Shown here: one piece after another, positions 9,734 to 56,664 of the stretch
Layout: each line of letters starts with the position of its first letter
How positions within the stretch are numbered: the first letter of the stretch is position 1
Assembly (NCBI GenBank): GCA_021927905.1
Contig: BLLK01000020.1
Location: forward strand, 1,426,001 to 1,490,000
Length of the DNA: 64,000 bases
Source of the DNA: Chaetoceros tenuissimus
Taxonomy: Eukaryota; Bacillariophyta; Thalassiosirophyceae; Chaetocerotales; Chaetocerotaceae
Direction: 5' to 3'
Made by a program: the position numbers and the translations under genes
The notes under the pieces: generated by a model
Databases searched by the model: none
Told to the model about the DNA's origin: nothing
Seen by the model: the letters and a program-made list of their open reading frames with translations, nothing else

Positions 9734-9739
9734 AACTGT

Positions 9740-19154: not shown

Positions 19155-20763
19155 TCACAATGATCATGTTGATTTTCCATCAATCCATCGTTTCTGTCAC
19201 TTTCCTCACGATTATCAAAATCATGGCATCCTCCAACATTCCTCAAGATTGATACGATACGCCTTACTACAGTCAGATCGCAACATTGCTTTCAGACACA
19301 CACGCCATACGCCTTTTGCAGCTGAACGCTACTACCACAGGAACAGTTCTGAGCAACTTGAATCTAACTCTGACTTTTACTATAATCCTGCGATGAGCAG
19401 TGAGTACGCTATTACTGATGCATACAGAATCGACCGGCTCTTCAGTGTTGAAGCGATTGCAAGGATCTTGAATTGGCGCCGACGAGGATCTTTCAAGGCC
19501 TCCTAGGAGCTCGTTACAAGAATTCACAACCACGAGCGTCTATTTGGTAGCAACGGCCTTACTTGCTGTTTCAGGAAGTACAAGACGGACGATAAGGACG
19601 AGTTGGTAGTCCGTTTCGAGCGAGTATGCCGCGAGGCAGCATGATCTTTACCGCTTGCATTCCCTTGCTTGTTGTTTGGATGTGGTGATAGGTCGTGGCG
19701 CGCAATCAGTGCTTTTGTGATGTGATGATATTATGATGTCCGATCCTTGATCCTTGATCCTTGATCGGGCACTGCTGGTCTGATCTGTTTACGTATGACT
19801 GACTGCATTTGGTTGTATAATATAAGAAGTAGGATGGCTGGTTTCATCCCATCCTTCATCACAGCATAGTATTCATCCTTATCTTGGTTTGGAGAGGAAG
19901 GCGTGAATGGTGAGTCATCGTCTACAGCCATCCAACCATGGGTTTGCTACTCATAATGCTGGCTTTCTTAGTAAGGCTTCCTTGCGATCACCACCCAGCC
20001 ACCACTATCATATCTTGTTTGCTCTTTCCTTGTGTAGTTTTGATGAATGGATAAGAGATAAGAGGTAGGCATTCTACTTCCTTCCATTGAGGTAAATTGT
20101 CAAGTGCGGGTCATGCCATGTTGTTGGTAGTTGTCCTTCGCAGATCATACCGTACATATGTCTATGTACACCACCCATTTCAACGGAAACAGCCGTGTAG
20201 GTAAAAAGTTGTTTAGGCCTCTTCGTGTCTGTTGAAAATTCAATTCTCTTTTGGAACGTAAACGTAATGATTTCTCTCAACCTCCTTTACATAGAGAAAT
20301 GTTACATCTACAAAGAGGGATCACTCCTTTACAAAAATGTAGCATTGATCAATGTCCTCCAATCAATGCTGGTGGTAATTATAGTATTTTTCACTACGAC
20401 AATGGGAATATTTGAGAGCGATGGTCTTGACAATCAACGATTACTCCTCAACGGACAAAACGGGATTGATTACGGTAGAACACCTCTTCCGATATTTTTT
20501 CAGTTTTTGCAGAAACGTACAAAGAAGATGAATTTGTTCCCTTGTCATGTGAAATAACCTTAGCTACATCGTAAAACCATCTCATGCCCCACATTCAAAT
20601 CAAGGAAATAGGAGCAAAATCACATGACTAGCTACGGACTTTAACAAAACAGATTGTAGTAAACATATCTTCTACAGAAGCTAGCAGATTCTCAATCACG
20701 CCGACAAAAGTTGAAACGAAGTCCTCCGCAATCACTAGCGTCGGTGGGAAGTGAAGCATCTTG
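19155..20763 (+). repeat. 5' spacer of HSF unit 1
   Basis: Array spacer without a convincing gene. It contains a frame conserved among some units (19393-19644, interrupted by TAG at 19504), a (CCTTGAT)3 micro-repeat at 19742-19766 that varies from 2 to 4 copies across units, and a GAAAATTC dyad at 20234-20241. The last 190 bp before the ATG are nearly identical in all units except unit 2. Confidence 0.8.
19393..19644 (+). other. Conserved spacer frame with an in-frame TAG (function unknown)
   Basis: From the ATG at 19393 the frame reads MSSEYAITDAYRIDRLF… to TAG at 19504-19506, then stays open for 45 more codons (…VVRFERVCREAA) to TGA at 19642. Unit 3 repeats this, including the TAG. In unit 2 the same frame has no internal stop and ends identically (VVRFERVCSKAA, TGA at 24209). 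In units 4-8 indels near the ATG shift it. It may be a decayed gene or the last exon of one, or chance conservation inside a recently duplicated spacer. Confidence 0.3.
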
Positions 20764-22134
20764 ATGTCGAAAAACAGAAGCAGTCGTACTACCGTAAGAG
20801 AGAAGTCAGATGCATCCATCATCGAGAAATACAAAAGGAATGATCTCATAGGAACTACATTCCCCATTAAGCTGCACATTGCACTGAAAGTTCTTCACAA
20901 TGAGGAGAGCGAAGATATAGTCTCCTGGTTGCCTCATGGCAGATCATTCAAAATTCATAACATGCGTGTCTTCGAGGAGATCATCATGAAGAGGTTTTTT
21001 CGACAAAGCAAGATTTCTTCGTTCAGGAGGCAGTTGAATCTCTATGGCTTTCAAAGGGTCCACTATGGAAGAGACATTGGTTCGTACTACCATAGATACT
21101 TCCTCCGAGGAAAGCCTCAGCTGGCAAAGCATATTACGAGAGAAAGCTGTACGATGCAGCAGATGTACAACCACCAGCGACTGCAACACCAAGAAGCTAG
21201 TGCTACCTGCATAGACGAGCCATACAAGCAGCAGCAGCAGGGGGGGATGGCAGGAGGAGCAAGCACGTTTGATGTGAACCGCAGTCAAGACTTTTATGAT
21301 ATGCCGTACATGGGGTCTGTAAACGACGTTGCTGACCACGCCGAGATAGGAGCTGGTATCAGTAGCAGCAGAGGAATACCATTGCTGAGAAGCAGCAATG
21401 AAGGTGGCATAGATGACCAAGCTACTGTTTCGGACATGACTAATGGTACATTCCATCCTGATCTACTTATGAATCATCATAACGCCAGTTATCAATTGGC
21501 ATTGCAACCTCCAGCTGGACCTTGCGATACTAGAGAGTGGTTGAGCTTGCAACTACAGGGACTGATAAATGCGCAAACCTTGAATGGACCATCGCAAGAG
21601 CAAATACAAGATGATCAAGCACAAGAGCAATTACAAGAGCAGGATACTATGTCTATGTCTACCAGTGCTCTTCGTGCTGGCTGTTTTCCGATGAGATCGT
21701 TGACCGTGTTGTCTAACAATACATCTCATACGCCGATCATAGCTCCGACTCGGACAGGAGAAAGAGATCAGTTGACATCCTTTTCTTCGTTGCTGCCGTT
21801 GTTGTCAGCAGAGCGAATGCCTGCTTTATCTGCGGCTCTATTGTCGTCACTATCATCATTACAACAAGGAGCTGTGTCTTCATCATTAGAATCTGACCAA
21901 TCAATGCAACAGCAACAACAACAACAACAACTACTACAACTACTCGTACTACGCCAACAGCAACTACTACAACAGCGAAGGCAATCAATGCTTCACCATA
22001 TAGAGGAGCTACCGAGGATGATATCTCAAGAAGTACCTAACATGATGACTAATGCTCATAATGGCAACAAGCATCAACACGAGCAGAGAGAGCGTAATGA
22101 AGGTCCTTCAGACAATCAATCACTTTGCGAATAA
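20764..22134 (+). CDS. HSF-type transcription factor, array copy 1
   Basis: 456 aa, intronless. The ATG at 20764 (MSKNRSSRTT…) is the first of the frame. Residues 33-127 form an HSF DNA-binding domain: 'FPIKLHIALKVL', 'DIVSWLPHGRSFKIHN', 'FFRQSKISSFRRQLNLYGFQRV' (recognition helix) and 'YYHRYFLRGKPQL'. HSFs bind nGAAn repeats in the nucleus. A canonical HR-A/B trimerisation coiled coil is not obvious; the C-terminus is Ser/Gln-rich with a Q8 tract followed by an amphipathic Leu/Gln segment (LLQLLVLRQQQLLQQRR) that could oligomerise or activate. Copy 1 differs from all others in its middle (about residues 190-290: …HPDLLMNHHNASYQLALQPPAG…), where the other copies share a different segment. Whether it responds to heat is not shown. 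Confidence 0.9.
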   Translation: MSKNRSSRTTVREKSDASIIEKYKRNDLIGTTFPIKLHIALKVLHNEESEDIVSWLPHGRSFKIHNMRVFEEIIMKRFFRQSKISSFRRQLNLYGFQRVHYGRDIGSYYHRYFLRGKPQLAKHITRESCTMQQMYNHQRLQHQEASATCIDEPYKQQQQGGMAGGASTFDVNRSQDFYDMPYMGSVNDVADHAEIGAGISSSRGIPLLRSSNEGGIDDQATVSDMTNGTFHPDLLMNHHNASYQLALQPPAGPCDTREWLSLQLQGLINAQTLNGPSQEQIQDDQAQEQLQEQDTMSMSTSALRAGCFPMRSLTVLSNNTSHTPIIAPTRTGERDQLTSFSSLLPLLSAERMPALSAALLSSLSSLQQGAVSSSLESDQSMQQQQQQQQLLQLLVLRQQQLLQQRRQSMLHHIEELPRMISQEVPNMMTNAHNGNKHQHEQRERNEGPSDNQSLCE

Positions 22135-22353
22135 TTGGAGAACAGAATATGATTTGTTGAAGCAATCATCAGTATCATTGTAGATCCTTCTTTTGTATCA
22201 GGAATGAAAATATTCATTGACATATCATTCTTGTTTCTTTTGTATTGTTGTCGGTGTTAAAAGATGATTCTCGAGCTTCATTCGACTGTTCAATGTGATT
22301 CCATAAATGAGCATTGAGGATCTGTGCTACTGTCTAGCTTACAATCAGTAGGA

Positions 22354-22515
22354 ATGATGCTTGCTTGCTTGCTTGGCTGTTTATTTGGTTGTATTGTTCT
22401 CGGATATCATCGTAATATGTTCGGAGATGATGAATGGAGTTGCGTTATAAAGACGGAAGTACTACGAAAGATAAAAATGAAAAGGCATAGAAAACGCATT
22501 AGAAGACCATTGTGA
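22354..22515 (+). CDS. Conserved post-HSF micro-ORF with one hydrophobic segment (eight copies)
   Basis: 53 codons from the double ATG at 22354: MMLACLLGCLFGCIVLGYHR, a hydrophobic Cys/Gly/Leu-rich helix followed by an acidic then a basic tail (RKIKMKRHRKRIRRPL). Equivalent frames lie at 26798-26959, 31523-31684, 36074-36235 and 40694-40855. Shortened 44-aa versions (ending KMKA) occur at 45311-45445, 50078-50212 and 54837-54971 after a 2-bp loss. It starts about 220 bp after the HSF stop, on the same strand, and may simply be HSF 3' UTR. Most differences among copies are conservative, but the copies are too similar to test selection by eye. Low confidence as a translated gene. Confidence 0.3.
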   Translation: MMLACLLGCLFGCIVLGYHRNMFGDDEWSCVIKTEVLRKIKMKRHRKRIRRPL

Positions 22516-24984
22516 ATGCGGAATATATTGCTCATTATCAGAAGTGCGAAAGACAAAAATGAAGGAAAAAGGAAAGGCATTAAACTACCATGGTGAATGT
22601 TGAATATGTTGTACATCATCGGTATGATACTAATGTGAATGTGTTGGAGTGCTCACAGAATTCAAAATGTCCTTTTGTGTGTAAGTAGCATCGTGAAAAA
22701 GGTACACTATCTATCTACCAATCGGTGATGTCATCGTATACTCGTAGAATGTACAACTATGTATTGTGTACAGTAAGGTACCCTACCACTACTATGCGGG
22801 GGGTCTCGGTGTGGTGATTCATGTCAATTTATCTGATGATACGTATTTGGCTATGGGAAAAAAGACACGTGTGTAACAGCTAAGCTAGTAGATAGCGGCA
22901 ACAGGAGCAGAAACATTTCAACATTACTATACGTACTATGGCGAAAAAATAGCAGATAGCATTTATCAGCTATAGAAGACCGTCCTCGTTTAGTTTCTTT
23001 TTGTTCAGTAGCTGACAATTTCTTAGAAATGAAGTAAGGAGGTCGTGACAACTGCGGGATGATGTTGGGAAGGAGGATTGTCGTCCTCTTTGCTGCTCTT
23101 AATACTAAGCAAGCAAGAAACTTGTTGCTTGGTTCAGCAAGCAATTAGCTAGCTAGTGTTAGATCACTCGAGAATGAAGAAGCAAGCAAACAACAAAAAT
23201 GTAGAAGAACCTTGGTGTAGTAATAGAAATGCATCTTTTTCATACTAGCAAGACTCGGCTACTACTTTACACACATAGGTAGTTGTTGACGAAATGTCTT
23301 CTTTCAAATATAAAAAAGTAAAGAGTACTAGTAACGGTTCGTCGTCAAATTTATTCTTTAGTACTTGTGTAGTCGGTTCATCACATTTCAATCATCTCCT
23401 TTTACATCAATCGCTCATCAGTTGTGTTGTGATACTACTCTTTGCTTGGCTGCTGGAATAAGTTCTTCTTGCTCGCTCCCACAGCATGGAACGAAGTCAA
23501 GTTGTTACAAGAATATCATCATCATCTCGTCGGCACGAAGACTCGAGGATAATACTGCTAAGGAGTGCTACCACACGACTTCTTAGCAAGCATAGAAATT
23601 CATATCTCACACTTAAAAAAGAAGAACCACGATTGGTAGCTAGTAATATTTGTTAACAAGAAGTACATCACTTCGCTCTTCTCTTCAAAATTGTAGCCAA
23701 ATAATTGATGATGTAGAATCCTTGTACCGTCAGTTTTGCTTGTTTCTCAACACTTTCAGTACAGCTCCTATCTCACAATGATCATTTGCTTTGCTTTTCT
23801 ATCAATCCATCGTTTCTGTCACTTTCCTCACGATTATCAAAATCATGGCATCCTCCAACATTCCTCAAAATTGATACGATACGACTTACTACAGTCAGAT
23901 CGCAACATTGCTTTCAGAAACACAAGCCTCTTGCAGCTGAACGCTACTACCACAGGAACAGTTCTGAGCAACTTGAATCTAACTCTGACTTTTACTATAA
24001 TCCTACGATGAGCAGTGAATACGACCTTGCTGATAGATACATAATGGACCAACTGTTACTAGCACTGGCGAGGAGCTCTCAATTCCTCCTTGTTACAGCA
24101 AAATGTCTTAACCACGAGTGTCTAGTTGGTAACTTTGTTGTTTCAAGAAGTACAAGACGGACAAGAAGTTTGGTAGTCCGTTTCGAGCGAGTATGCAGCA
24201 AGGCAGCATGATGAACTTTACCATCTTGCAAGATTGTTTTCTTTGCTTGCTTTCCCTTGCTTGTTTGGACGTGGTGCAATCAGTGCTTTTGTGATCTGAT
24301 GATCTGATTTATGATTTGTTTACCAGTGGCATTTGATTGTATGTAAGAAGTAGGATGGCTGGTTTCATGTTTTCATCCCATCCTTCTTCACGCACAGCAT
24401 AGTATTCATCCTTATCTTTGTTTGGAGAGGAATGCTGGGTCGTTGCCAACAGCCATCCAACCAAGGGTTTGCTACCCATAATGCTGGCTTTCTTAGTAAG
24501 GCTTCCTTGTGATCAGCAACACCATTATCGTTTGTTGATTTCCTGAATGGAAAGAGATAAGAGGTAGGCATTCTACTTCCTTCCATTGAGGTAAATTGTC
24601 AAGTGCGGGTCATGCTGTTGTCCTTCGCAGATCATACTGTCAAAGCATGGTCAAAGTACAAAAGTACCAAGAACCGCTCAACGGCAGCAGATGTCGCGGT
24701 AAAAGTTGTTTTAGGCCTCTTCGTGTCTGTTGAAAATTCATTCTCCTTTGGAACGTAAACGTAATGATTTCTCTCAATCTTCCAAAATCTTCTGAACGTA
24801 GAGAAATGTTTCATCTACAAAAGAAGGATCACTAGCATTGATCAATGTCTGCTCAAAGGTGGTCACAACATTAGTAACGAGAATGGGAATATTTGAGAGC
24901 GATGGTCTTGACAACCAACGATTACTCCTCAACGGATTTAACGGGATCAGAATCAGAAAAGTGAGAGTACAAGCTCGTGACATG

Positions 24985-25216
24985 TATGCACGATACCTTA
25001 CTATTACTACTGTCTCAAAAAGTAAGAAAAGTTAGAACACAACTGACAAAAACGAAAAGAGAGAATGGACATGGACTGGTATACACCATGAATACAATAA
25101 GGGCAGTGCTAAAGTTCATTTATCATTAGTTCTAATATAATTATAATTAAACTATAGTGGGGACTACTCCTTGGATCCTGCTACGCTACAAACGCGGCGA
25201 CAGAGGAGCTGCAGCG
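24985..25216 (+). promoter_or_regulatory. Unit-2-specific upstream region
   Basis: Replaces the roughly 190-bp block that precedes the ATG in the other seven copies. It is AT-rich around 25120-25150 and GC-richer just before the ATG (GCTACGCTACAAACGCGGCG). Its promoter role is inferred only from position. Confidence 0.4.
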
Positions 25217-26578
25217 ATGACGAAGTCGAAAAACAGAAGCAGTCGTACTACCGTAAGAGAGAAGTCAGATGCATCCATCATCGAGAAATACGAAAGGAAT
25301 GATCTCACAGGAACTACATTCCCCATTAAGCTGCACATTGCACTGAAAGTTCTTCACAATGAGGAGAGCGAAGATATAGTCTCCTGGTTGCCTCATGGCA
25401 GATCATTCAAAATTCATAACATGCGTGTCTTCGAGGAGATCATCATGAAGAGGTTTTTTCGACAAAGCAAGATTTCTTCGTTCAGGAGGCAGTTGAATCT
25501 CTATGGCTTTCAAAGGGTCCACTATGGAAGAGACATTGGTTCGTACTACCATAGATACTTCCTCCGAGGAAAGCCTCAGCTGGCAAAGCATATTACGAGA
25601 GAAAGCTGTACGATGCAGCAGATGTACAACCACCAGCGACTGCAACACCAAGAAGCTAGTGCTACCTGCATAGACGAGCCATACAAGCAGCAGCAGCAGG
25701 GGGGGATGGCAGGAGGAGCAAGCACGTTTGATGTGAACCGCAGTCAAGACTTTTATGATATGCCGTACATGGGGTCTGTAAACGACATTGATATGGTCGA
25801 CGCTGGTATCAGTAGCAGCAGAGGAATACCATTGCTGAGAAGCAGCAATGAAGGTGGCATAGAGGGCCAAGCTACTGTTTCGAACGTACTGAATAATGGT
25901 ACATCAATGGTTCGACAGTCCGTTCGCACTTCTGATCTGCTGATGAATCATCATAACGCCAGTCACCAAGAGGCATTGCATTCTCCACTTAGATCACCTC
26001 AAGTCCAACATGAGCATGCCTTGTCGAATCTATCTGCACAAGAGCAACAACAAGTACAAGAGCAAGTGCAATTACAAGAGCAGGATACTATGTCTATGTC
26101 TACCAGTGCTCTTCGTGCTGGCTATTTCCCGACGAGAACGTTGACCGCATTATCTAACAATACATCTCATACGCCGATCATAGCTCCGACTCGGACAGGA
26201 GAAAGAGATCAGTTGACATCCTTTTCTTCGTTGCTGCCGTTGTTGTCAGCAGAGCGAATGCCTGCTTTATCTGTGGCTCTATTGTCGTCACTATCATCAT
26301 TACAACAAGGAGCTGTGTCTTCATCATTAGAATCTGACCAATCAATGCAACAACAACAACAACAGCAACTACAGCTATTACAACTACTCGTACTACGCCA
26401 ACAGCAACTACAACAACAGCGAAGGCAATCAATGCTTCACCATATAGAGGAGCTACCGAGGATGATATCTCAAGAAGTACCTAACATGATGACTAATGCT
26501 CATAATAACAACAAGCATCAACACGAGCAGAGAGAGCGAAATGAAGGTCCTTCAGACAATCAATCACTTTGCGAATAA
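25217..26578 (+). CDS. HSF-type transcription factor, array copy 2 (private promoter)
   Basis: 453 aa from the ATG at 25217 (MTKSKNRSSRTT…). The DNA-binding domain is nearly identical to copy 1; the middle is of the common type (…MVRQSVRTSDLLMNHHNASHQEALHS…); the C-terminal tract is Q7 followed by LQLLQLLVLRQQQLQQQRR. The N-terminus (MTKSK instead of MSK) and roughly 230 bp upstream are unlike the other copies: AT-rich with an ATAATTATAATTAAACTATAG stretch near 25136. This copy may therefore be transcribed differently. No frameshift or stop. Confidence 0.9.
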   Translation: MTKSKNRSSRTTVREKSDASIIEKYERNDLTGTTFPIKLHIALKVLHNEESEDIVSWLPHGRSFKIHNMRVFEEIIMKRFFRQSKISSFRRQLNLYGFQRVHYGRDIGSYYHRYFLRGKPQLAKHITRESCTMQQMYNHQRLQHQEASATCIDEPYKQQQQGGMAGGASTFDVNRSQDFYDMPYMGSVNDIDMVDAGISSSRGIPLLRSSNEGGIEGQATVSNVLNNGTSMVRQSVRTSDLLMNHHNASHQEALHSPLRSPQVQHEHALSNLSAQEQQQVQEQVQLQEQDTMSMSTSALRAGYFPTRTLTALSNNTSHTPIIAPTRTGERDQLTSFSSLLPLLSAERMPALSVALLSSLSSLQQGAVSSSLESDQSMQQQQQQQLQLLQLLVLRQQQLQQQRRQSMLHHIEELPRMISQEVPNMMTNAHNNNKHQHEQRERNEGPSDNQSLCE

Positions 26579-29500
26579 TTGGAGAACAGAATATGATTTG
26601 TTGAAGCAATCATCAGTATCACTGTAGATCCTTCTTTTGTATCAGGAATGAAAATATTCATTGATATATCATTCTTGTTTCTTTTGTATTGTTGTCGGTG
26701 TTAAAAGATGATTCTCGAGCTTCATTCGACTGTTCAATGTGATTCCATAAATGAGCATTGAGGATCTATGCTACTGTCTAGCTTACAATCAGTAGGAATG
26801 ATGCTTGCTTGCTTGCTTGGCTGTTTATTTGGTTGTATTGTTCTCGGATATTATCGTAATATGTTCGGAGATGATGAATGGAGTTGCGTTATAAAGACGG
26901 AAGTACTACGAAAGATAAAAATGAAGGGGCATAGAAAACGCATTAGAACACCATTGTGAATGCGGAATATATTGTTCATCATCAGAAGTACGAAAGACAA
27001 GAAAAATGAAGGAAAAGTAAAAGGCATTAAACTACCATGGTGAATGTTGAATATGTTGTACATCATCGGTATGATACTAATGTGAATGTGTTGGAGTGCT
27101 AACAGAATTCAAAATGTCCTTTTGTGTGTAAGTAGCATCGTGAAAAAGGTAAACGCTCTACGCCATACCAATCGATGATGTCATGTTTGGTGACCATAGT
27201 ATGTACAGCTGACTCTTCTGTACAGTATGGTACCTACCTACTAGTAATATGTGGAGGTATTCCTACCATGCGGTGTGTCTCACTGTTGTGATGATTCATG
27301 TCAAAAATGATTGACGAATACTTTCCTCTGATGACTGATGACACGTATTTGGATATGGGAAAAGACACCATGTGTAACTTTGTAGCTATAGCTATCGATA
27401 GTTGCTACGGGAGCAGAAACATGCAACTAGCAGCCAGTTTTAACATTATTACTACGACGAAAAAATAGCAGATAAGATCGCCGTTGAGGTTCTTTTCGTT
27501 AGCTAGTAGCTGACAATTGCTTAGAAATGAAGTGAGTAGGTCGTGACAACTGCGGGATGATGTTGGGAAGGAGGATCGTCCTCCTTCCTGTTCGTACTAC
27601 TACCAGTAATAAGCAAGATATTATCTAGCTAATATTAGATTGTTCGAGAATGGAGAAGCAAACATACAACAACGAAAATGTAGAAGACCCTAGCAGGGTG
27701 AAGTACACTACTACTAGAAATGTATGCTTCTTCTTCATGTTAGCACAAGACTTGGACCACTACTATACACTTGTAGTTGTTGACGAGCGAAATGTCTGCA
27801 TCATATGGAGGAATACTTTTTCTTTAAAATTAAATCAAGTAATGATTAGTAATGGCTTGTCGTCAAGCAAGCAAGCAAGGATACCTATAGTAGTAGTCGG
27901 TTCATCACATTTCAATTATCTCCTTTTATATCAATCGCTCATCAGTTGTGTTGTGATACAACTCTTTCCTTGGCTGCTGGAATAAGTTCTTCTTGCTCGC
28001 TCCCATAGCACGGAACGAAGTCAAGTTGTTACAAGAATATCAACATCATCTCGTCGGCACGAAGACTCGAGGATAATACTGCTAAGTGCTACCACACGAC
28101 TACTTAGCAAGCATACAAATTCATGTCCGAGAAGACTAGTAGCTAGTAATATTTAACAAGCAAGAAGTACATCACTTCGCTCTTCTCTTCAAAATTGTAG
28201 CCAAATAATTGATGATATAGAATCCTTGTACCGCCAGTGTTGCTTGTTTTCTCAACACTTTCAATGCAGCTCCTATCTCACAATGATCATTTGCTTTGCT
28301 TTTCCATCAATCCATCGTTTCTGTCACTTTCCTCACGATTATCAAAATCATGGCATCCTCCAACATTCCTCAAGATTGATACCATATGATGCAATGAAAC
28401 AATACGATACTTACTACCGTCAGACAACAACAAGATCGCAGTACCAGACACACAAGCCTCTTGCAGCTGAACGATGATAGCTATGTACTACCCCAGAAAC
28501 ATTTCTGAGCAACTTGAATCTAACTCTAACTTTCATACTCCTACGATGAGCAGTGAGTACGCTATTACTGATGCATACAGAATCGACCGGCTCTTCAGTG
28601 TTGAAGCGATTGCAAGGATCTTGAATTGGCGCCGACGAGGATCTTTCAAGGCCTCCTAGGAGCTCGTTACAAGAATTCACAACCACGAGCGTCTATTTGG
28701 TAGCAACGGCCTTACTTGCTGTTTCAAGAAGTACAAGACGGACGATAAGGACGAGTTGGTAGTCCGTTTCGAGCGAGTATGCCGCGAGGCAGCATGATCT
28801 TTACCATCTTGCAACTTTGATCACTTACTTTGCTTGCATTCCCTTGCTTGTTGTTTGGACGTGGTGATAGGTCGTGGCGCGCAATCAGTGCTTTTGTGAT
28901 GTGATGATATTATGATGTCCGATCCTTGATCCTTGATCCTTGATCCTTGATCGGGCACTGCTGGTCTGATCTGTTTACGTATGACTGACTGCATTTGGTT
29001 GTATAATATAAGAAGTAGGATGGCTGGTTTCATCCCATCCTTCATCACAGCATGATAGCATGATATCCTTATCTTGGTTTGGAGAGGAAGGCGTGAGTGG
29101 TGAGTCATCGTCTACAGCCATCCAACCATGGGTTTGCTACTCATAATGCTGGCTTTCTTAGTAAGGCTTCCTTGCGATCACCACCCAGCCACCACTATCA
29201 TATCTTGTTTGCTCTTTCCCTGTGTAGTTTTGATGAATGGATAAGAGATAAGAGGTAGGCATTCTACTTCCTTCCATTGAGGTAAATTGTCAAGTGCGGG
29301 TCATGCCATGTTGTTGGTAGTTGTCCTTCGCAGATCATACCGTACATATGTCTATGTACACCACCCATTTCAACGGAAACAGCCGTGTAGGTAAAAAGTT
29401 GTTTAGGCCTCTTCGTGTCTGTTGAAAATTCAATTCTCTTTTGGAACGTAAACGTAATGATTTCTCTCAACCTCCTTTACATAGAGAAATGTTACATCTA

Positions 29501-29956: not shown

Positions 29957-31303
29957 ATGTCGAAAAACAGAAGCAGTCGTACTACCGTAAGAGAGAAGTC
30001 AGATGCATCCATCATCGAGAAATACATAAGGAATGATCTCATAGGAACTACATTCCCCATTAAGCTGCACATTGCACTGAAAATCTTACACAATGAGGAG
30101 AGCGAAGATATAGTCTCCTGGATGCCTCATGGAAGATCATTCAAAATTCATAACATGCGTGTCTTCGAGGAGATCATCATGAAGAGGTTTTTTCGACAAA
30201 GCAAGATTTCTTCGTTCAGGAGGCAGTTGAATCTCTATGGCTTTCAAAGGGTCCACTATGGAAGAGACATTGGTTCGTACTACCATAGATACTTCCTCCG
30301 AGGAAAGCCTCAGCTGGCAAAGCATATTACGAGAGAAAGCTGTACAATGCAGCAGATGTACAACCACCAGCGACGGCAACAACAAGAAGCTAGTGCTACC
30401 TGCATAGACGAGCCATACAAGCAGCAGCAGCAAGGGATGGCAGGAGGAGCAAGCACGTTTGATGTGAACCGCAGTCAAGACTTTTATGATATGCCGTACA
30501 TGGGGTCTGTAAACGACATTGATATGGTCGACGCTGGTATCAGTAGCAGCAGAGGAATACCATTGCTGAGAAGCAGCAATGAAGGTGGCATAGAGGGCCA
30601 AGCTACTGTTTCGAACGTACTGAATAATGGTACATCAATGGTTCGACAGTCCGTTCGCACTTCTGATCTGCTGATGAATAATCATAACGCCAGTCACCAA
30701 GAGGCATTGCATTCTCCACTTAGATCACCTCAAGTCCAACATGAGCATGCCTTGTCGAATCTACCAGTACAAGAGCAACAAGTACAAGAGCAAGTGCAAT
30801 TACAAGAGCAGGATACTATGTCTATGTCTACCAGTGCTCTTCGTGCTGGCTATTTCCCGACGAGATCGTTGACCGCATTATCTAACAATACATCTAATAC
30901 GCCGATCATAGCTCCGACTCGGACAGGAGAAAGAGATCAGTTGACATCCTTTTCTTCGCTGCTGCCGTTGTTGTCAGCAGAGCGAATGCCTGCTTTATCT
31001 GTGGCTCTGTTGTCGTCACTATCATCATTACAACAAGGAGCTGTGTCTTCATCATTAGAATCTGACCAATCAATGCAACAACAACAACAGCAACTACAGC
31101 TATTACAACTACTCGTACTACGCCAACAGCAACTACAACAACAGCGAAGGCAATCAATGCTTCACCATATAGAGGAGCTACCGAGGATGATATCTCAAGA
31201 AGTACCTAACATGATGACTAATGCTCATAATAACAACAAGCATCAACACGAGCAGAGAGAGCGAAATGAAGGTCCTTCAGACAATCAATCACTTTGCGAA
31301 TAA
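29957..31303 (+). CDS. HSF-type transcription factor, array copy 3
   Basis: 448 aa, the shortest intact copy, from the ATG at 29957. The DNA-binding domain matches the others, with 'ALKILHNEESEDIVSWMPHGRSFKIHNM'. The linker tract is Q4 (YKQQQQGMAGG) and the C-terminal tract Q6. It shares the common middle segment with copies 2, 4 and 5, and HSF-wide residues (W in SW.PHGRSF, RRQLNLYGFQRV) are retained. Upstream it carries the standard roughly 190-bp block, so expression is expected to follow copies 1 and 4-8 rather than copy 2. Confidence 0.9.
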   Translation: MSKNRSSRTTVREKSDASIIEKYIRNDLIGTTFPIKLHIALKILHNEESEDIVSWMPHGRSFKIHNMRVFEEIIMKRFFRQSKISSFRRQLNLYGFQRVHYGRDIGSYYHRYFLRGKPQLAKHITRESCTMQQMYNHQRRQQQEASATCIDEPYKQQQQGMAGGASTFDVNRSQDFYDMPYMGSVNDIDMVDAGISSSRGIPLLRSSNEGGIEGQATVSNVLNNGTSMVRQSVRTSDLLMNNHNASHQEALHSPLRSPQVQHEHALSNLPVQEQQVQEQVQLQEQDTMSMSTSALRAGYFPTRSLTALSNNTSNTPIIAPTRTGERDQLTSFSSLLPLLSAERMPALSVALLSSLSSLQQGAVSSSLESDQSMQQQQQQLQLLQLLVLRQQQLQQQRRQSMLHHIEELPRMISQEVPNMMTNAHNNNKHQHEQRERNEGPSDNQSLCE

Positions 31304-34561: not shown

Positions 34562-35854
34562 ATGTCGAAAAACAGAAGCAGTCGTACTACCGTAAGAGAG
34601 AAGTCAGATGCATCCATCATCGAGAAATACAAAAGGAATGATCTCACAGGAACTACATTCCCCATTAAGCTGCACATTGCACTGAAAATCTTACACAATG
34701 AGAAGAGCGAAGATGTAGTCTCCTGGATGCCTCATGGAAGATCATTCAAAGTTCATAGCATGCGTGTCTTCGAGGAGATCATCATGAAGAGGTTTTTTCG
34801 ACAAAGCAAGATTTCTTCGTTCAGGAGGCAGTTGAATCTCTATGGCTTTCAAAGGGTCCACTATGGAAGAGACATTGGTTCGTACTACCATAGATACTTC
34901 CTCCGAGGAAAGCCTCAGCTGGCAAAGCATATTACGAGAGAAAGCTGTACGAGGATGCAGCAGATGTACAACCACCAGCGACGGCAACAACAAGAAGCTA
35001 GTGCTACCTGCAAAGATGAGCCACAGCAGCAGCAAGGGATGGCAGGAGGAGCAAGCACGTTTGATGTGAACCGCAGTCAAGACTTTTATGATATGCCCTA
35101 CATGGGGTCTGTAAACGACATTGATATGGTCGACGCTGGTATCAGTAGCAGCAGAGGAATACCATTGCTGAGAAGCAGCAATGAAGGTGGCATAGAGGGC
35201 CAAGCTACTGTTTCGAACGTACTGAATAATGGTACATCAATGGTTCGACAGTCCGTTCGCACTTCTGATCTGCTGATGAATCATCATAACGCCAGTCACC
35301 AAGAGGCATTGCATTCTCCACTTAGATCACCTCAAGTCCAACATGAGCATGCCTTGTCGAATCTACCAGTACAAGAGCAACAAGTACAAGAGCAAGTGCA
35401 ATTACAAGAGCAGGATACTATGTCTATGTCTACCAGTGCTCTTCGTGCTGGCTATTTCCCGACGAGATCGTTGACCGCATTATCTAACAATACATCTAAT
35501 ACGCCTCATAGCTCCGACTCGGCCAGTTGACATCAGCAGAGCGAATGCCTGCTTTATCTGTGGCTCTGTTGTCGTCACTATCATCATTACAACAAGGAGC
35601 TGTGTCTTCATCATTAGAAGACCAATCAATGCAACAACAACAACAGCAAACAGCTATTACAACTACTCGTACTACGCCAACAGCAACTACAACAACAACG
35701 AAGGCAATCAATGCTTCACCATATAGAGGAGCTACCGAGGATGATATCTCAAGAAGTACCTAACATGATGACTAATGCTCATAACAACAAGCATCAACAC
35801 GAGCAGAGAGAGCGAAATGAAGGTCCTTCAGACAATCAATCACTTTGCGAATAA
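34562..35854 (+). pseudogene. HSF array copy 4, truncated after the DNA-binding domain
   Basis: The ATG at 34562 opens a normal HSF DNA-binding domain and middle segment, but the frame stops at TGA 35528-35530 after 322 aa. Compared with copy 5, the region 35503-35800 has several deletions and almost no substitutions: 2 bp in 'ACGCC(GA)TCATAG', about 14 bp after 'GACTCGG', 27 bp after 'TTGACATC', 3 bp at 'GAA(TCT)GACC', and loss in the CAA tract. The deletions sum to a multiple of three, so the final codons and stop (35852-35854) return to frame but are not reached. The product would bind DNA but lack the Q/L-rich C-terminus; it could be a pseudogene or a repressor-like short form. An assembly error is possible. 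Confidence 0.75.
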
Positions 35855-39112: not shown

Positions 39113-40229
39113 ATGTCGAAAAACAGAAGCAGTCGTACTACCGTAAGAGAGAAGTCAGATGCATCCATCATCGAGAAATACAAAAGGAATGATCTCACAG
39201 GAACTACATTCCCCATTAAGCTGCACATTGCACTGAAAATCTTACACAATGAGAAGAGCGAAGATGTAGTCTCCTGGATGCCTCATGGAAGATCATTCAA
39301 AGTTCATAGCATGCGTGTCTTCGAGGAGATCATCATGAAGAGGTTTTTTCGACAAAGCAAGATTTCTTCGTTCAGGAGGCAGTTGAATCTCTATGGCTTT
39401 CAAAGGGTCCACTATGGAAGAGACATTGGTTCGTACTACCATAGATACTTCCTCCGAGGAAAGCCTCAGCTGGCAAAGCATATTACGAGAGAAAGCTGTA
39501 CGAGGATGCAGCAGATGTACAACCACCAGCGACGGCAACAACAAGAAGCTAGTGCTACCTGCAAAGATGAGCCACAGCAGCAGCAAGGGATGGCAGGAGG
39601 AGCAAGCACGTTTGATGTGAACCGCAGTCAAGACTTTTATGATATGCCCTACATGGGGTCTGTAAACGACATTGATATGGTCGACGCTGGTATCAGTAGC
39701 AGCAGAGGAATACCATTGCTGAGAAGCAGCAATGAAGGTGGCATAGAGGGCCAAGCTACTGTTTCGAACGTACTGAATAATGGTACATCAATGGTTCGAC
39801 AGTCCGTTCGCACTTCTGATCTGCTGATGAATCATCATAACGCCAGTCACCAAGAGGCATTGCATTCTCCACTTAGATCACCTCAAGTCCAACATGAGCA
39901 TGCCTTGTCGAATCTACCAGTACAAGAGCAACAAGTACAAGAGCAAGTGCAATTACAAGAGCAGGATACTATGTCTATGTCTACCAGTGCTCTTCGTGCT
40001 GGCTATTTCCCGACGAGATCGTTGACCGCATTATCTAACAATACATCTAATACGCCGATCATAGCTCCGACTCGGACAGGAGAAAGAGATCAGTTGACAT
40101 CCTTTTCTTCGTTGCTGCCGTTGTTGTCAGCAGAGCGAATGCCTGCTTTATCTGTGGCTCTGTTGTCGTCACTATCATCATTACAACAAGGAGCTGTGTC
40201 TTCATCATTAGAATCTGACCAATCAATGC

Positions 40230-40260
<31 letters not shown>

Positions 40261-40474
40261 GCAACAACAGCTATTACAACTACTCGTACTACGCCAACAG
40301 CAACTACAACAACAACGAAGGCAATCAATGCTTCACCATATAGAGGAGCTACCGAGGATGATATCTCAAGAAGTACCTAACATGATGACTAATGCTCATA
40401 ATGGCAACAAGCATCAACACGAGCAGAGAGAGCGAAATGAAGGTCCTTCAGACAATCAATCACTTTGCGAATAA
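39113..40474 (+). CDS. HSF-type transcription factor, array copy 5 (longest polyQ)
   Basis: 453 aa from the ATG at 39113. N-terminal and middle parts are almost identical to copy 4 ('HNEKSEDVVSWMPHGRSFKVHSM', 'RESCTRMQQMY', linker 'DEPQQQQGMAGG' without YK). Unlike copy 4 the C-terminus is complete. Its glutamine tract is the longest of the array, Q14 encoded mostly by pure CAA (40229-40270), followed by LLQLLVLRQQQLQQQRR. Long pure CAA/CAG runs mutate by slippage, so length may differ between alleles. HSF core residues are intact. Confidence 0.9.
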
Positions 40475-43400: not shown

Positions 43401-43723
43401 CAACGATTACTCCTCAACGGACAAAACGGGATTGATTACGGTAAAATGAACACCTCTTCCGATATTTTTTCAGTTTTTGCAGAAAAGTAAAGAAGATGAA
43501 TGTGTCCCCTTGTCATGTGAAATAACCTTATATCGTAAAAACATCTCATGCCCCACATTCAAATCAAGGAAATAGGAGCAAAGTCACATGACTACGGACT
43601 TTAACAAAACAGATTGTAGTAAACATATCTTCTACAGAAGCTGGCAGATTCTCAATCACGACGACAAAAGTTGAAACGAAGTCCTCCGCAATCACTAGCG
43701 TCGGTGAGAAGTGAAGCATCTTG
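40475..43723 (+). repeat. Array spacer 5
   Basis: Like spacers 3 and 4 over most of its length. The last 250 bp switch to the version found before copies 7 and 8 (shorter AGAAA(A/C)GTAAAGAAGATGAATGTG, CATGACTACGGAC without CTAG). Micro-ORF at 40694-40855. Confidence 0.8.
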
Positions 43724-45091: not shown

Positions 45092-48000
45092 TTGGAGAAC
45101 AGAATATGATTTGTTGAAGCAATCATCAGTATCATTGTAGATCCTTCATTTGTATCAGGAATGAAAATATTCATTGACATATCATTCTTGTTTCTTTTGT
45201 ATTGTTGTCGGTGTTAAAAGATGATTCTCGAGCTTCATTCGACTGTTCAATGTGATTCCATAAATGAGCATTGAGGATCTGTGCTACTGTCTAGCTTACA
45301 ATCAGTAGGAATGATGCTTGCTTGCTTGCTTGGCTGTTTATTTGGTTGTATTGTTCTCGGATATCATCGTAATATGTTCGGAGATGATGAATGGAGTTGC
45401 GTTATAAAGACGGAAGTACTACGAAAGATAAAAATGAAGGCATAGAAAACGCATTAGAACACCATTGTGAATGCGGAATATATTGCTCATTATCAGAAGT
45501 ACGAAAGACAAAAATGAAGGAAAAAGGAAAGGCATTAAACTACCATGGTGAATGTTGAATATGTTGTACATCATCGGTACAGTATGATACTAATGTGAAT
45601 GTGTTGGAGTGCTCACAGAATTCAAAATGTCCTTTTGTGTGTAAGTAGCATCGTGAAAAAGGTAAACGCTCTACGCCATACCAATCGATGATGTCATGTT
45701 TGGTGATCATAGTATGTACAGCTGACTCTTCTGTACAGTATGGTACCTACCTACTAGTATTATGTGGAGGTATTCCTACCATGCAGTGTGTCTCACTGTT
45801 GTGATGATTCATGTCAAAAAATGATTGACGAATACTTTCCTCTGATGACTGATGACACGTATTTGGATATGGGAAAAGACACCATGTGTAACTTTGTAAC
45901 TTTGTAGCTATAGCTATAGTTGCGACGGGAGCAGAAACATGCAACTAGCAGCCAGTTTTAACATTATTACTACGACGAAAAAATAGCAGCTATAAGATCG
46001 CCGTTGAGGTTCTTTTCGTTAGCTAGTAGCTGACAATTGCTTAGAAAGAAGGATCGTCCTCTTTGCTACATAGAGGCCTAAGCAAGGAGCAAGAACGAAA
46101 AAATTAGCTAGGAGCTTATGTTAAATCCTCGTTAGATTGCTCGAGAAGGAGGAAACAAGCAAACAACAACAAAAATGTAGAAGAACCTAGATGTAGTACA
46201 CTTCTAGACTTCTTCTTTAAAAATAAAATCAGCCAAGTCATGATTACTAGTAACCGCTTGTCATTGGCAAGCAAGCAAGAGTACTTATTCCTTGCTTAGT
46301 AGTGTAGTCGGTTCATCAGATTCAATCATCTCCTTTTATATCAATCGCTCTTCAGTTGTGATACTCCTTACATTGCTTGGAACAAATTCTTGCTCCCGCA
46401 GCACGGAACGAAGGCAAGTAGTCATCATAAGAATATCAACATCATCTCGTCGGCACGACGACTCGAGGATAATACAGCTAAGTGCTACCACACGACTACT
46501 GAGAAAAAATACAAATTCATATCGCAAACTTAAAAGAAGAACCACGATTAGTATAGCTAGTATATTTCACAAGAAGTTATCATCATCTCGTTGGCACGAA
46601 GACTCGAGGATAATACTGCTAAGTGCTACCACGAGACTACTTAGCAAGCAAACAAATTCATGTCTCACACTTCTTAAAAGAAGAACCACGATAAGACTAG
46701 TAACTAGTAATATTTGTTAACAAGAAGTACATCACTTCGCTCTTCTCGTCAAAATTGTAGCCAAATAATTGATGATGTAGAATCCTTGTACCGTCAGTTT
46801 TGCTTGTTTCTCAACACTTTCAATGCAGCTCCTATCTCACAATGATCATTTGCTTTGCTTTTCCATCAATCCATCGTTTCTGTCACTTTCCTCACGATTA
46901 TCAAAATCATGGCATCCTCCAACATTCCTCAAGATTGATACCATATGATGCAATACGATACTTACTACCGTCAGACAACAACAAGATCGCAGTACCAGAC
47001 ACACAAGCCTCTTGCAGCTGAACGATGATAGCTACGTACTACCACAGAAACATTTCTGAGCAACTTTAATCTAACAACTCTAACTTTCATACTCCTACGA
47101 TGAGTAGTGATTACTATCTTGCTGATGCATACATAATCGACCGGCTCTTCAGTGTTGAAGCGAATGCAAGGATCTTGAATTGGCGCCGACGAGGATCTTT
47201 CAAGGCCTCCTAGGAGCTCGTTACAAGAATTCACAACCACGAGCGTCTATTTGGTAGCAACGGCCTTACTTGCTGTTTCAAGAAGTACAAGACGGACGAT
47301 AAGGACGAGTTGGTAGTCCGTTTCGAGCGAGTATGCCGCGAGGCAGCATGATCTTTACCATCTTGCAACTTTGATCACTTACTTTGCTTGCATTTCCTTG
47401 CTTGTTGTTAGGACGTGGTGATAGGTAGTGGCGCGCAATCAGTGCTTTTGTGATGTGATGATATTATGATGTCCGATCCTTGATCCTTGATCGGGCACTG
47501 CTGGTCTGATCTGTTTACGTATGACTGACTGCATTTGGTTGTATAATATAAGAAGTAGGATGGCTGGTTTCATCCCATCCTTCATCACAGCATGATAGCA
47601 TGATATCCTTATCTTGGTTTGGAGAATAAGGCGTGAGTGGTGAGTCATCGTCTACAGCCATCCAACCATGGGTTTGCTACTCATAATGCTGGCTTTCTTA
47701 GTAAGGCTTCCTTGCGATCACCACACAGCCACCACTATCATATCTTGTTTGCTCTTTCCTTGTGTAGTTTTGATTGAATGGATAAGAGATAAGAGGTAGG
47801 CATTCTACTTGTCCTTCCATTGAGGTAAATTGTCAAGTGCGGGTAATGTTGTTGGTAGTTGTCCTTCGCAGATCATACCGTACATATGTCTATATGTACA
47901 CCACCCATTTCAACGGAAACAGCCGTGTAGGTAAAAAGTTGTTTAGGCCTCTTCGTGTCTGTTGAAAATTCAATTATCTTTTGGAACGTAAACGTAATGA

Positions 48001-48487
48001 TTTCTCTCAACCTCCTTTACATAGAGAAATGTTACATCTACATAGAGGGATCACTCCTTTACAAAAATGTAGCATTGATCAATGTCCTCCAATCAATGCT
48101 GGTGGTAATTATAGTATTTTTCACTACGACAATGGGAATATTTGAGAGCGATGGTCTTGACAATCAACGATTACTCCTCAACGGACAAAACGGGATTGAT
48201 TACGGTAAAATGAACACCTCTTCCGATATTTTTTCAGTTTTTGCAGAAACGTAAAGAAGATGAATGTGTCCCCTTGTCATGTGAAATAACCTTATATCGT
48301 AAAAACATCTCATGCCCCACATTCAAATCAAGGAAATAGGAGCAAAGTCACATGACTACGGACTTTAACAAAACAGATTGTAGTAAACATATCTTCTACA
48401 GAAGCTGGCAGATTCTCAATCACGCCGACAAAAGTTGAAACGAAGTCCTCCGCAATCACTAGCGTCGGTGAGAAGTGAAGCATCTTG
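45092..48487 (+). repeat. Array spacer 6 with internal duplication
   Basis: First spacer of the long type (4.76-kb unit). It contains a 141-bp-period duplication of a TCATCTCGT(C/T)GGCACGA-headed block (46441-46561 and 46582-46701), absent from spacers 1-5, and a second copy of AACTTTGTA near 45890. The micro-ORF is shortened (45311-45445). The duplication makes a 142-codon frame at 46292-46720 that starts without ATG and is internally repetitive; not a gene. Confidence 0.8.
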
Positions 48488-49858
48488 ATGTCGAAAAACA
48501 GAAGCAGTCGTACTACCGTAAGAGAGAAGTCAGATGCATCCATCATCGAGAAATACATAAGGAATGATCTCACAGGAACTACATTCCCCATTAAGCTGCA
48601 CATTGCACTGAAAATCTTACGCAATGAGGAGAGCGAAGATATAGTCTCCTGGATGCCTCATGGAAGATCATTCAAAGTTCATAGCATGCGTGTCTTCGAG
48701 GAGATCATCATGAAGAGGTTTTTTCGACAAAGCAAGATTTCTTCGTTCAGGAGGCAGTTGAATCTCTATGGCTTTCAAAGGGTCCACTATGGAAGAGACA
48801 TTGGTTCGTACTACCATAGATACTTCCTCCGAGGAAAGCCTCAGCTGGCAAAGCATATTACGAGAGAAAGCTGTACGAGGATGCAGCAGATGTACAACCA
48901 CCAGCGACTGCAACACCAAGAAGCTAGTGCTACCGGTACAGACGAGCCATACAAGCAGCAGCAGCAGCAGCAGCAGCAGGGGATGGCAGGAGGAGCAAGC
49001 ACGTTTGATGTGAACCGCAGTCAAGACTTTTATGATATGCCCTACATGGGGTCTGTAAACGACATTGCTATGGTCGACGCTGGTATCAGTAGCAGCAGAG
49101 GAATACCATTTTTGAGAAGCAGCAATGAAGGTGGCATAGAGGGCCAAGCTACTGTTTCGAACTTACTGAATAATGGTACATCAATGGTTCGACAGTCCGT
49201 TCGCACTTCTGATCTGCTGATGAATCATCATAACGCCAGTCACCAAGGGGCATTGCATTCTTCATTTAGATCGCCTCAAGTCCAACATGAGCATGCCTTG
49301 TCGAATCTACCAGTACAAGAACAACAATTACAAGAGCAAGTGCAATTACAAGAGCAGGATACTATGTCTATGTCTACCAGTGCTCTTCGTGCTGGCTATT
49401 TCCCGACGAGATCGTTGACCGCATTATCTAACAATACATCTAATACGCCGATCATAGCTCCGACTCGGACAGGAGAAAGAGATCAGTTGACATCCTTTTC
49501 TTCGCTGCTGCCGTTGTTATCAGCAGAGCGAATGCCTGCTTTATCTGTGGCTCTATTGTCGTCACTATCATCATTACAACAAGGAGCTGTGTCTTCATCA
49601 TTAGAATCTGACCAATCAATACAACAACAGCAACAGCAACAGCAACTACAGCTATTACAACTACTCGTACTACGCCAACAGCAACTACAACAACAACGAA
49701 GGCAATCAATGCTTCACCATATAGAGGAGCTACCGAGGATGATATCTCCTCAAGAAGTACCTAACATGATGACTAATGCTCATAATGGCAACCAGCATCA
49801 ACACGAGCAGAGAGAGCGTAATGAAGGTCCTTCAGACAATCAATCACTTTGCGAATAA
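48488..49858 (+). CDS. HSF-type transcription factor, array copy 7
   Basis: 456 aa from the ATG at 48488. Nearly identical to copy 6 in the coding region. Differences seen: 'KYIRNDL' for 'KYKRNDL', 'ALKILRNEESED' for 'ALKVLHNEESED', and one more Gln in the CAG linker (Q8). The C-terminus is of the SIQ…LQLLQLL and RMISPQEVPN type. HSF DNA-binding residues are intact and the standard upstream block precedes the ATG. Confidence 0.9.
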   Translation: MSKNRSSRTTVREKSDASIIEKYIRNDLTGTTFPIKLHIALKILRNEESEDIVSWMPHGRSFKVHSMRVFEEIIMKRFFRQSKISSFRRQLNLYGFQRVHYGRDIGSYYHRYFLRGKPQLAKHITRESCTRMQQMYNHQRLQHQEASATGTDEPYKQQQQQQQQGMAGGASTFDVNRSQDFYDMPYMGSVNDIAMVDAGISSSRGIPFLRSSNEGGIEGQATVSNLLNNGTSMVRQSVRTSDLLMNHHNASHQGALHSSFRSPQVQHEHALSNLPVQEQQLQEQVQLQEQDTMSMSTSALRAGYFPTRSLTALSNNTSNTPIIAPTRTGERDQLTSFSSLLPLLSAERMPALSVALLSSLSSLQQGAVSSSLESDQSIQQQQQQQQLQLLQLLVLRQQQLQQQRRQSMLHHIEELPRMISPQEVPNMMTNAHNGNQHQHEQRERNEGPSDNQSLCE

Positions 49859-52800: not shown

Positions 52801-53255
52801 TACATCTACAAAGAGGGATCACTCCTTTACAAAAATGTAGCATTGATCAATGTCCTCCAATCAATGCTGGTGGTAATTATAGTATTTTTCACTACGACAA
52901 TGGGAATATTTGAGAGCGATGGTCTTGACAATCAACGATTACTCCTCAACGGACAAAACGGGATTGATTACGGTAAAATGAACACCTCTTCCGATATTTT
53001 TTCAGTTTTTGCAGAAACGTAAAGAAGATGAATGTGTCCCCTTGTCATGTGAAATAACCTTATATCGTAAAAACATCTCATGCCCCACATTCAAATCAAG
53101 GAAATAGGAGCAAAGTCACATGACTACGGACTTTAACAAAACAGATTGTAGTAAACATATCTTCTACAGAAGCTGGCAGATTCTCAATCACGCCGACAAA
53201 AGTTGAAACGAAGTCCTCCGCAATCACTAGCGTCGGTGAGAAGTGAAGCATCTTG
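49859..53255 (+). repeat. Array spacer 7
   Basis: Near-identical to spacer 6, including the internal duplication (about 51208-51470) and the shortened micro-ORF (50078-50212). A small difference at 51480 (ATTTAACAAGC in place of ATTTGTTAAC) is shared with spacer 8. Confidence 0.85.
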
Positions 53256-54617
53256 ATGTCGAAAAACAGAAGCAGTCGTACTACCGTAAGAGAGAAGTCA
53301 GATGCATCCATCATCGAGAAATACATAAGGAATGATCTCACAGGAACTACATTCCCCATTAAGCTGCACATTGCACTGAAAATCTTACGCAATGAGGAGA
53401 GCGAAGATATAGTCTCCTGGATGCCTCATGGAAGATCATTCAAAGTTCATAGCATGCGTGTCTTCGAGGAGATCATCATGAAGAGGTTTTTTCGACAAAG
53501 CAAGATTTCTTCGTTCAGGAGGCAGTTGAATCTCTATGGCTTTCAAAGGGTCCACTATGGAAGAGACATTGGTTCGTACTACCATAGATACTTCCTCCGA
53601 GGAAAGCCTCAGCTGGCAAAGCATATTACGAGAGAAAGCTGTACGAGGATGCAGCAGATGTACAACCACCAGCGACTGCAACACCAAGAAGCTAGTGCTA
53701 CCGGTACAGACGAGCCATACAAGCAGCAGCAGCAGCAGCAGCAGCAGGGGATGGCAGGAGGAGCAAGCACGTTTGATGTGAACCGCAGTCAAGACTTTTA
53801 TGATATGCCCTACATGGGGTCTGTAAACGACATTGCTATGGTCGACGCTGGTATCAGTAGCAGCAGAGGAATACCATTTCTGAGAAGCAGCAATGAAGGT
53901 GGCATAGAGGGCCAAGCTACTGTTTCGAACTTACTGAATAATGGTACATCAATGGTTCGACAGTCCGTTCGCACTTCTGATCTGCTGATGAATCATCATA
54001 ACGCCAGTCACCAAGGGGCATTGCATTCTTCATTTAGATCGCCTCAAGTCCAACATGAGCATGCCTTGTCGAATCTACCAGTACAAGAACAACAATTACA
54101 AGAGCAAGTGCAATTACAAGAGCAGGATACTATGTCTATGTCTACCAGTGCTCTTCGTGCTGGCTGTTTTCCGATGAGATCGTTGACCGCATTATCTAAC
54201 AATACATCTAATACGCCGATCATAGCTCCGACTCGGACAGGAGAAAGAGATCAGTTGACATCCTTTTCTTCGCTGCTGCCATTGTTATCAGCAGAGCGAA
54301 TGCCTGCTTTATCTGTGGCTCTATTGTCGTCACTATCATCATTACAACAAGGAGCTGTGTCTTCATCATTAGAATCTGACCAATCAATGCAACAACAACA
54401 ACAGCAACAACAACTACTACAACTACTCGTACTACGCCAACAGCAACTACTACAACAGCGAAGGCAATCAATGCTTCACCATATAGAGGAGCTACCGAGG
54501 ATGATATCTCAAGAAGTACCTAACATGATGACTAATGCTCATAATGGCAACCAGCATCAACACGAGCAGAGAGAGCGTAATGAAGGTCCTTCAGACAATC
54601 AATCACTTTGCGAATAA
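53256..54617 (+). CDS. HSF-type transcription factor, array copy 8 (mosaic)
   Basis: 453 aa from the ATG at 53256. The first 300 residues match copy 7 (KYIRNDL, ALKILRNEESED, linker Q8). The C-terminal part instead carries copy-1 features: 'GCFPMRSLT' (54163-54183 as TGGCTGTTTTCCGATGAGATC) and 'QQQLLQLLVLRQQQLLQQRR', with SMQ rather than SIQ and no extra proline before EVPN. In between, 'SVALLSS' and 'NGNQHQ' follow copy 7. Patchwork of this kind points to gene conversion or unequal crossover with a copy-1-like template. The open frame is intact and functional prediction is as for the other copies. Confidence 0.9.
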   Translation: MSKNRSSRTTVREKSDASIIEKYIRNDLTGTTFPIKLHIALKILRNEESEDIVSWMPHGRSFKVHSMRVFEEIIMKRFFRQSKISSFRRQLNLYGFQRVHYGRDIGSYYHRYFLRGKPQLAKHITRESCTRMQQMYNHQRLQHQEASATGTDEPYKQQQQQQQQGMAGGASTFDVNRSQDFYDMPYMGSVNDIAMVDAGISSSRGIPFLRSSNEGGIEGQATVSNLLNNGTSMVRQSVRTSDLLMNHHNASHQGALHSSFRSPQVQHEHALSNLPVQEQQLQEQVQLQEQDTMSMSTSALRAGCFPMRSLTALSNNTSNTPIIAPTRTGERDQLTSFSSLLPLLSAERMPALSVALLSSLSSLQQGAVSSSLESDQSMQQQQQQQQLLQLLVLRQQQLLQQRRQSMLHHIEELPRMISQEVPNMMTNAHNGNQHQHEQRERNEGPSDNQSLCE

Positions 54618-56664
54618 TTGGAGAACAGAATATGATTTGTTGAAGCAATCATCAGTATCATTGTAGATCCTTCTTTTGTATCAGGAATGAAAATATTCAT
54701 TGATATATCATTCTTGTTTCTTTTGTATTGTTGTCGGTGTTAAAAGATGATTCTCGAGCTTCATTCGACTGTTCAATGTGATTCCATAAATGAGCATTGA
54801 GGATCTATGCTACTATCTAGCTTACAATCAGTAGGAATGATGCTTGCTTGCTTGCTTGGCTGTTTATTTGGTTGTATTGTTCTCGGATATCATCGTAATA
54901 TGTTCGGAGATGATGAATGGAGTTGCGTTATAAAGACGGAAGTACTACGAAAGATAAAAATGAAGGCATAGAAAACGCATTAGAACACCATTGTGAATGC
55001 GGAATATATTGTTCATCATCAGAAGTACGAAAGACAAAAATGAAGGAAAAAGGAAAGGCATTAAACTACCATGGTGAATGTTGAATATGTTGTACATCAT
55101 CGGTATGATACTAATGTGAATGTGTTGGAGTGCTCACAGAATTCAAAATGTCCTTTTGTGTGTAAGTAGCATCGTGAAAAAGGTAAACGCTCTACGCCAT
55201 ACCAATCGATGATGTCATGTTTGGTGACCATAGTATGTACAGCTGACTCTTCTGTACAGTATGGTACCTACCTACTAGTATTATGTGGAGGTATTCCTAC
55301 CATGCGGTGTGTCTCACTGTTGTGATGATTCATGTCAAAAAATGATTGACGAATACTTTCCTCTGATGACTGATGACACGTATTTGGATATGGGAAAAGA
55401 CACCATGTGTAACTTTGTAACTTTGTAGCTATAGCTTATTAGTTGCGACGGGAGCAGAAACATGCAACTAGCAGCCAGTTTTAACATTATTACTACGACG
55501 AAAAAATAGCAGCTATAAGATCGCCGTTGAGGTTCTTTTCGTTAGCTAGTAGCTGACAATTGCTTAGAAAGAAGGATCGTCCTCTTTGCTACCTAGAGGC
55601 CTAAGGAGCAAGAACGAAAAAATTAGCTAGGAGCTTATGTTAAATCCTCGTTAGATTGCTCGAGAAGGAGGAAACAAGCAAACAACAACAAAAATGTAGA
55701 AGAACCTAGATGTAGTACACTTCTAGACTTCTTCTTTAAAAATAAAATCAGCCAAGTCATGATTACTAGTAACCGCTTGTCATCGGCAAGCAAGCAAGAG
55801 TACTTATTCCTTGCTTAGTAGTGTAGTCGGTTCATCAGATTCAATCATCTCCTTTTATATCAATCGCTCTTCAGTTGTGATACTCCTTACATTGCTTGGA
55901 ACAAATTCTTGCTCCCGCAGCACGGAACGAAGGCAAGTAGTCATCATAAGAATATCAACATCATCTCGTCGGCACGACGACTCGAGGATAATACAGCTAA
56001 GTGCTACCACACGACTACTGAGAAAAAATACAAATTCATATCGCAAACTTAAAAGAAGAACCACGATTAGTATAGCTAGTATATTTCACAAGAAGTTATC
56101 ATCATCTCGTTGGCACGAAGACTCGAGGATAATACTGCTAAGTGCTACCACGAGACTACTTAGCAAGCAAACAAATTCATGTCTCACACTTCTTAAAAGA
56201 AGAACCACGATAAGACTAGTAACTAGTAATATTTAACAAGCAAGAAGTACATCACTTCGCTCTTCTCGTCAAAATTGTAGCCAAATAATTGATGATGTAG
56301 AATCCTTGTACGACCGTCAGTTTTGCTTGTTTCTCAACACTTACAATGCAGCTCCTATCTCACAATGATCATTTGCTTTGCTTTTCCATCAATCCATCGT
56401 TTCTGTCACTTTCCTCACGATTATCAAAATCATGGCATCCTCCAACATTCCTCAAGATTGATACCATATGATGCAATACGATACTTACTACCGTCAGACA
56501 ACAACAAGATCGCAGTACCAGACACACAAGCCTCTTGCAGCTGAACGATGATAGCTACGTACTACCACAGAAACATTTCTGAGCAACTTTAATCTAACAA
56601 CTCTAACTTTCATACTCCTACGATGAGTAGTGAGTACGCTATTGCTGATGCATACATAATCGAC
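54618..56664 (+). repeat. Array spacer 8, truncated at its 3' end
   Basis: Starts like spacer 7 (micro-ORF 54837-54971, duplication about 55960-56220), passes the unit start near 56360 and ends abruptly at …GATGCATACATAATCGAC. About 1.5 kb of 5' spacer and most of the next HSF gene are missing. Confidence 0.85.

Follow-up and report, generated by a model that had tools for sequence, protein, structure and literature searches.

An eight-unit tandem array of HSF-type transcription factor genes in Chaetoceros tenuissimus, probably amplified locally and evolving in concert

The window analysed here, a stretch of 64,000 nucleotides of the Chaetoceros tenuissimus genome (C14:1426001-1490000), contained eight head-to-tail units, all in + orientation, forming one direct repeat at 19145-56664 in self-BLAST and unit alignment. 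Self-comparison of the window gave a unit period of 4.46-4.77 kb, and pairwise self-matches reached 14.2 kb at 96.8% and 10.1 kb at 98.6%. This confirmed the eight-copy array of the original prediction, whose coordinates were correct within 10 bp. In a search of the whole genome (41,027,912 bases in 68 contigs), unit DNA and spacer DNA were matched only inside the array, which is a single locus; a dispersed mobile element carrying the unit was rejected, since unit DNA was confined to the array. Every unit (8/8) held one uninterrupted HSF reading frame, beginning at the first coordinate of the respective gene line:

19145-56664, + strand: whole array, eight head-to-tail units and about 0.3 kb of a ninth (self-BLAST, unit alignment)
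20764-22134, + strand: HSF gene of unit 1, 456 aa, with a divergent middle segment at 21416-21665 (ORF, alignment, tract scan)
23763-25216, + strand: upstream region of unit 2, differing by about 25% from every other unit
25217-26578, + strand: HSF gene of unit 2, 453 aa, with another upstream sequence and another N-terminus (MTKSKN)
25222-27532, + strand: homogenised tract of unit 2 (gene and about 1 kb of 3' flank), 95-98% identical to units 3-8
29957-31303, + strand: HSF gene of unit 3, 448 aa (ORF, alignment)
34562-35530, + strand: HSF gene of unit 4, 322 aa from the ATG, frameshifted after about 35505, DNA-binding domain intact
39113-40474, + strand: HSF gene of unit 5, 453 aa
43724-45091, + strand: HSF gene of unit 6, 455 aa, Pfam PF00447 at residues 41-126
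45092-48487, unstranded: example spacer, unit 6 to unit 7, with no ATG-started ORF above 85 aa and no Rfam match
48488-49858, + strand: HSF gene of unit 7, 456 aa
53256-54617, + strand: HSF gene of unit 8, 453 aa, C-terminal variants common to unit 1 only
56350-56664, unstranded: terminal partial (ninth) repeat, 78% against the first 290 bp of the array (self-comparison)

The frames of seven units were intact and encoded 448-456 aa, in agreement with the seven complete HSF genes proposed earlier. The eighth, unit 4, was a frameshifted and truncated copy: a 2-bp deletion at about 35505 was followed by a 41-bp deletion, and a stop occurred at 35530. Unit 4 is one recent copy loss. Its coding deletions relative to unit 5 (34562-35800) added up to a length divisible by three at the gene's end, and the frame was regained near the C-terminus, with the early stop lying before that point.

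The surroundings of the array comprised several other elements. At 6356-13102 of the window we found a probable MULE-type DNA transposon with 46/47-bp inverted ends about 96% alike and two convergent ORFs, one of which showed a weak SWIM signature in addition to a MULE transposase; no clear target-site duplication was seen for it. An element of about 2.17 kb with inverted ends of about 400 bp and without a long ORF followed at 13684-15849. Copies of one end at 99% occurred on C17 and C29, and three more on C54 at a spacing of about 7.2 kb, which suggests another tandem duplication on C54. The right flank (58857-63957) held two minus-strand genes, one bestrophin-like and the other coding for a BET bromodomain protein. 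Elsewhere among the genes of this genome, light-harvesting protein L005 aligned nearly throughout with the photosystem I antenna FCPI-7 of a Chaetoceros species (PDB 6ly5, E=4e-103).

The assignment of the genes to the HSF family rested on a Pfam HSF_DNA-bind match (PF00447) of 73.8 bits against a cut-off of 22 (E=1.7e-20) and on sequence matches to human HSF1 structures (E=8e-11), with HSF2 and HSF4 structures also found. The recognition helix SFRRQLNLYGF was invariant in all copies, truncated unit 4 included. For the HR-A/B trimerisation region, a simple scan showed no strong heptad after the DNA-binding domain, and the AlphaFold model of the 455-aa protein had a mean pLDDT of 34.5, too low for judging this region. 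From what is known of the family, the array proteins are probably regulators of transcription that recognise specific DNA sequences. Many of the HSFs in this genome (L002, L003, L014-L036) had an EPxFYxMP-like motif about 60 residues past the recognition helix; its counterpart in the array, QDFYDMPYMGSVNDI, lay farther from the helix.

All coding indels in the seven intact copies were in frame (16/16), as opposed to 28 of 95 in the spacers, although part of this excess reflects slippage in the Q tracts (CAA/CAG), which is in frame by nature. For segregating changes among units 2-8, pN/pS was about 0.45 (p=0.002, an approximate value like all p-values here, because sites are not independent when copies exchange sequence). 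Together, the in-frame indels and the pN/pS ratio indicate that the copies are under purifying selection. The neutral substitution pattern named in the original prediction as speaking against the array was therefore not what we found. Broken down by part, pN/pS was 0.28 in the C-terminal part, the only individually significant one, 0.52 in the middle and 0.54 in the DNA-binding domain. It had been proposed that diversity is concentrated in the Q tracts and the middle segment and that the DNA-binding domain hardly varies. This was only partly right: the DNA-binding domain had 12 segregating changes, 8 of them amino-acid-changing, the strongest excess of silent changes fell in the C-terminal third, and the very divergent middle segment was restricted to unit 1. 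Compared with unit 6, this segment of unit 1 had a pN/pS of about 1.0, and all its indels were in frame.

Alignment and tract scan further revealed that divergence shifts abruptly along the units, a mosaicism absent from the original prediction. In unit 2, the strongly divergent upstream region gave way to the homogenised tract, and divergence resumed 3' of 27532. Unit 1 diverged by 0.9-1.9% across 1.35 kb upstream, strongly at 21416-21665 within the gene, little afterwards and again 3' of about 22.7 kb. Unit 8 was nearly identical to unit 7 save for the C-terminal stretch of its coding sequence; there, four of its sites (relative positions 907, 911, 916 and 1198) matched unit 1 only. Among neighbouring sites the incompatible fraction was 0.156 against 0.246 expected, none of 1000 site-order permutations was as low, and the rejection of no recombination by site order persisted when units 1 and 2 were excluded. 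This mosaicism would be read most simply as the result of gene conversion or of unequal exchange between units. Some of the small tracts could stem from haplotype switches in the assembly; the large tracts of units 1 and 2 could not. A literature search found no report of HSF gene conversion in diatoms. The upstream regions of units 4 and 5 differed at 0 of 1357 bases and those of units 7 and 8 at 1 of 1345, near-zero values that support the recent local amplification suggested before.

The spacers deserve separate consideration, since among units 3-8 they were about as similar to each other as the genes, and what is amplified might thus be a conserved function residing in them, be it a non-coding RNA, a second gene or a shared regulatory element. 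Such similarity is, however, expected from recent duplication, and candidates for a function were rejected one after the other. The spacers matched no Rfam family, which disposed of a non-coding RNA, and ARAGORN (bacterial code) detected no tRNA. A second protein gene was dismissed as well, the ORFs being short and none both sizeable and conserved. Autoregulation through heat-shock elements was discarded since perfect or near-perfect three-unit elements upstream were not above chance. No codon-phase signal was found in the diverged spacer pairs, a test of low power because the coding control was flat too. About 70% of the spacer indels were not multiples of three, and the spacers of units 1 and 2 had diverged freely. 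A functional spacer as the amplified entity is the reading to which we give least credence; a spacer function past that of an ordinary promoter finds no support in these comparisons. Spacer conservation would reflect recent duplication and exchange between copies, without need of a function.

Part of the array could also be an artefact of assembly, with alleles of two diploid haplotypes strung together as false tandem copies. The published assembly is haploid and was made from Nanopore and Illumina data, and heterozygosity of the sequenced strain is 1.56% (PMC8613185), on the order of the divergence among units 3-8, so that haplotype mixing could imitate some of the tracts or contribute an extra copy; the near identity of units 4/5 and 7/8 would fit as well. 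On the other hand, units 1 and 2 differed from the rest over long stretches and far above allelic divergence, all eight units carried their own substitutions or indels, unit lengths differed, and a similar HSF array exists elsewhere in the genome. We consider such an artefact unlikely. Somewhat less probable is that the array works as a cassette in which conversion shuffles middle and C-terminal segments and thereby yields different regulators on one DNA-binding domain. Boundaries of mosaic segments do fall inside the coding region, and the pN/pS of about 1 and in-frame indels of the unit 1 middle segment point the same way; yet differences among units 3-8 were few and under purifying selection, and conversion mainly homogenises. 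More doubtful again is a living variant generator in which conversion swaps middle and C-terminal segments and puts young genes under old promoters, and strains differ in their regulators. If true, it would provide sets of regulators that all have the same constant DNA-binding domain, and the environment might select among them.

We therefore return to the reading we favor, with a probability of about 0.82: one diatom gene for an HSF-family transcription factor was amplified locally into a tandem array, and its copies evolve in concert. The copies are adjacent, share orientation and flanks, and bear traces of exchange with each other. Repeated unequal exchange between homologous repeats would have created the units and would change their number; the partial ninth repeat (about 0.3 kb) on the right is what exchange between flanking repeats could leave behind, although it does not prove such an origin. 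Gene conversion would continue to homogenise the genes, with some of the upstream and middle segments escaping it. Several copies may plausibly provide extra dosage, and unit 2 may be regulated separately, because its upstream sequence differs. With its near-identical protein and other upstream sequence, unit 2 is a natural case in which to study how regulation diverges once a gene has been duplicated.

The array was not the only clustered HSF locus. The genome gave at least 151 HSF-domain matches, and among the 150 domains listed, 68 had another within 10 kb and fell into 23 clusters, where about 10 would be expected if 143 loci were placed at random. Besides the eight-unit array, the genome contained at least two more tandem HSF arrays. 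One, at C43:61300-71300, was a second strict head-to-tail array of six genes of about 248 aa with repeated flanks, units from about 1.49 kb and coding divergence of 0-3.4%, two copies being identical in their coding sequence. The other, a shorter array on C59, had a 1.68-kb tandem unit at 93%. The eight-unit array was the largest HSF cluster seen among the matches listed. Tandem HSF expansion has been described in several diatoms, Seminavis robusta included (PMC7335047). Given these reports and the clustering in the present genome, the view that HSF expansion in diatoms is known only as dispersed families, against which the array had originally been set, is incorrect.

The array is thus a large new example of the tandem HSF expansion already known in diatoms and not a new kind of system. 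It illustrates the course that the exceptional HSF expansion of diatoms would take: local duplication, conversion, occasional copy loss and escape of regulatory segments. With the HSFs of Seminavis robusta and other diatoms (PMC7335047) it shares the HSF-type DNA-binding domain, membership in a large family and tandem duplication; it differs from them in its eight near-identical units with 3-kb spacers, strict head-to-tail order and mosaic exchange. For C. tenuissimus NIES-3715 (assembly of 41.0 Mb, 38.9% GC, largest scaffold 4.46 Mb), HSF domains were reported to be commoner than in three other diatoms (PMC8613185); a text search of that paper did not find the word "tandem". The array on C43 likewise has head-to-tail HSF genes with repeated flanks, but its units are shorter and its compact proteins belong to another HSF subfamily. 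The HSF paralog L002 at C14:1352593, 93 kb upstream, is 59% identical over the DNA-binding region and has the FYxMPYMGSVND motif in common with the array proteins, whereas it is a single-copy gene of 645 aa with another C-terminus.
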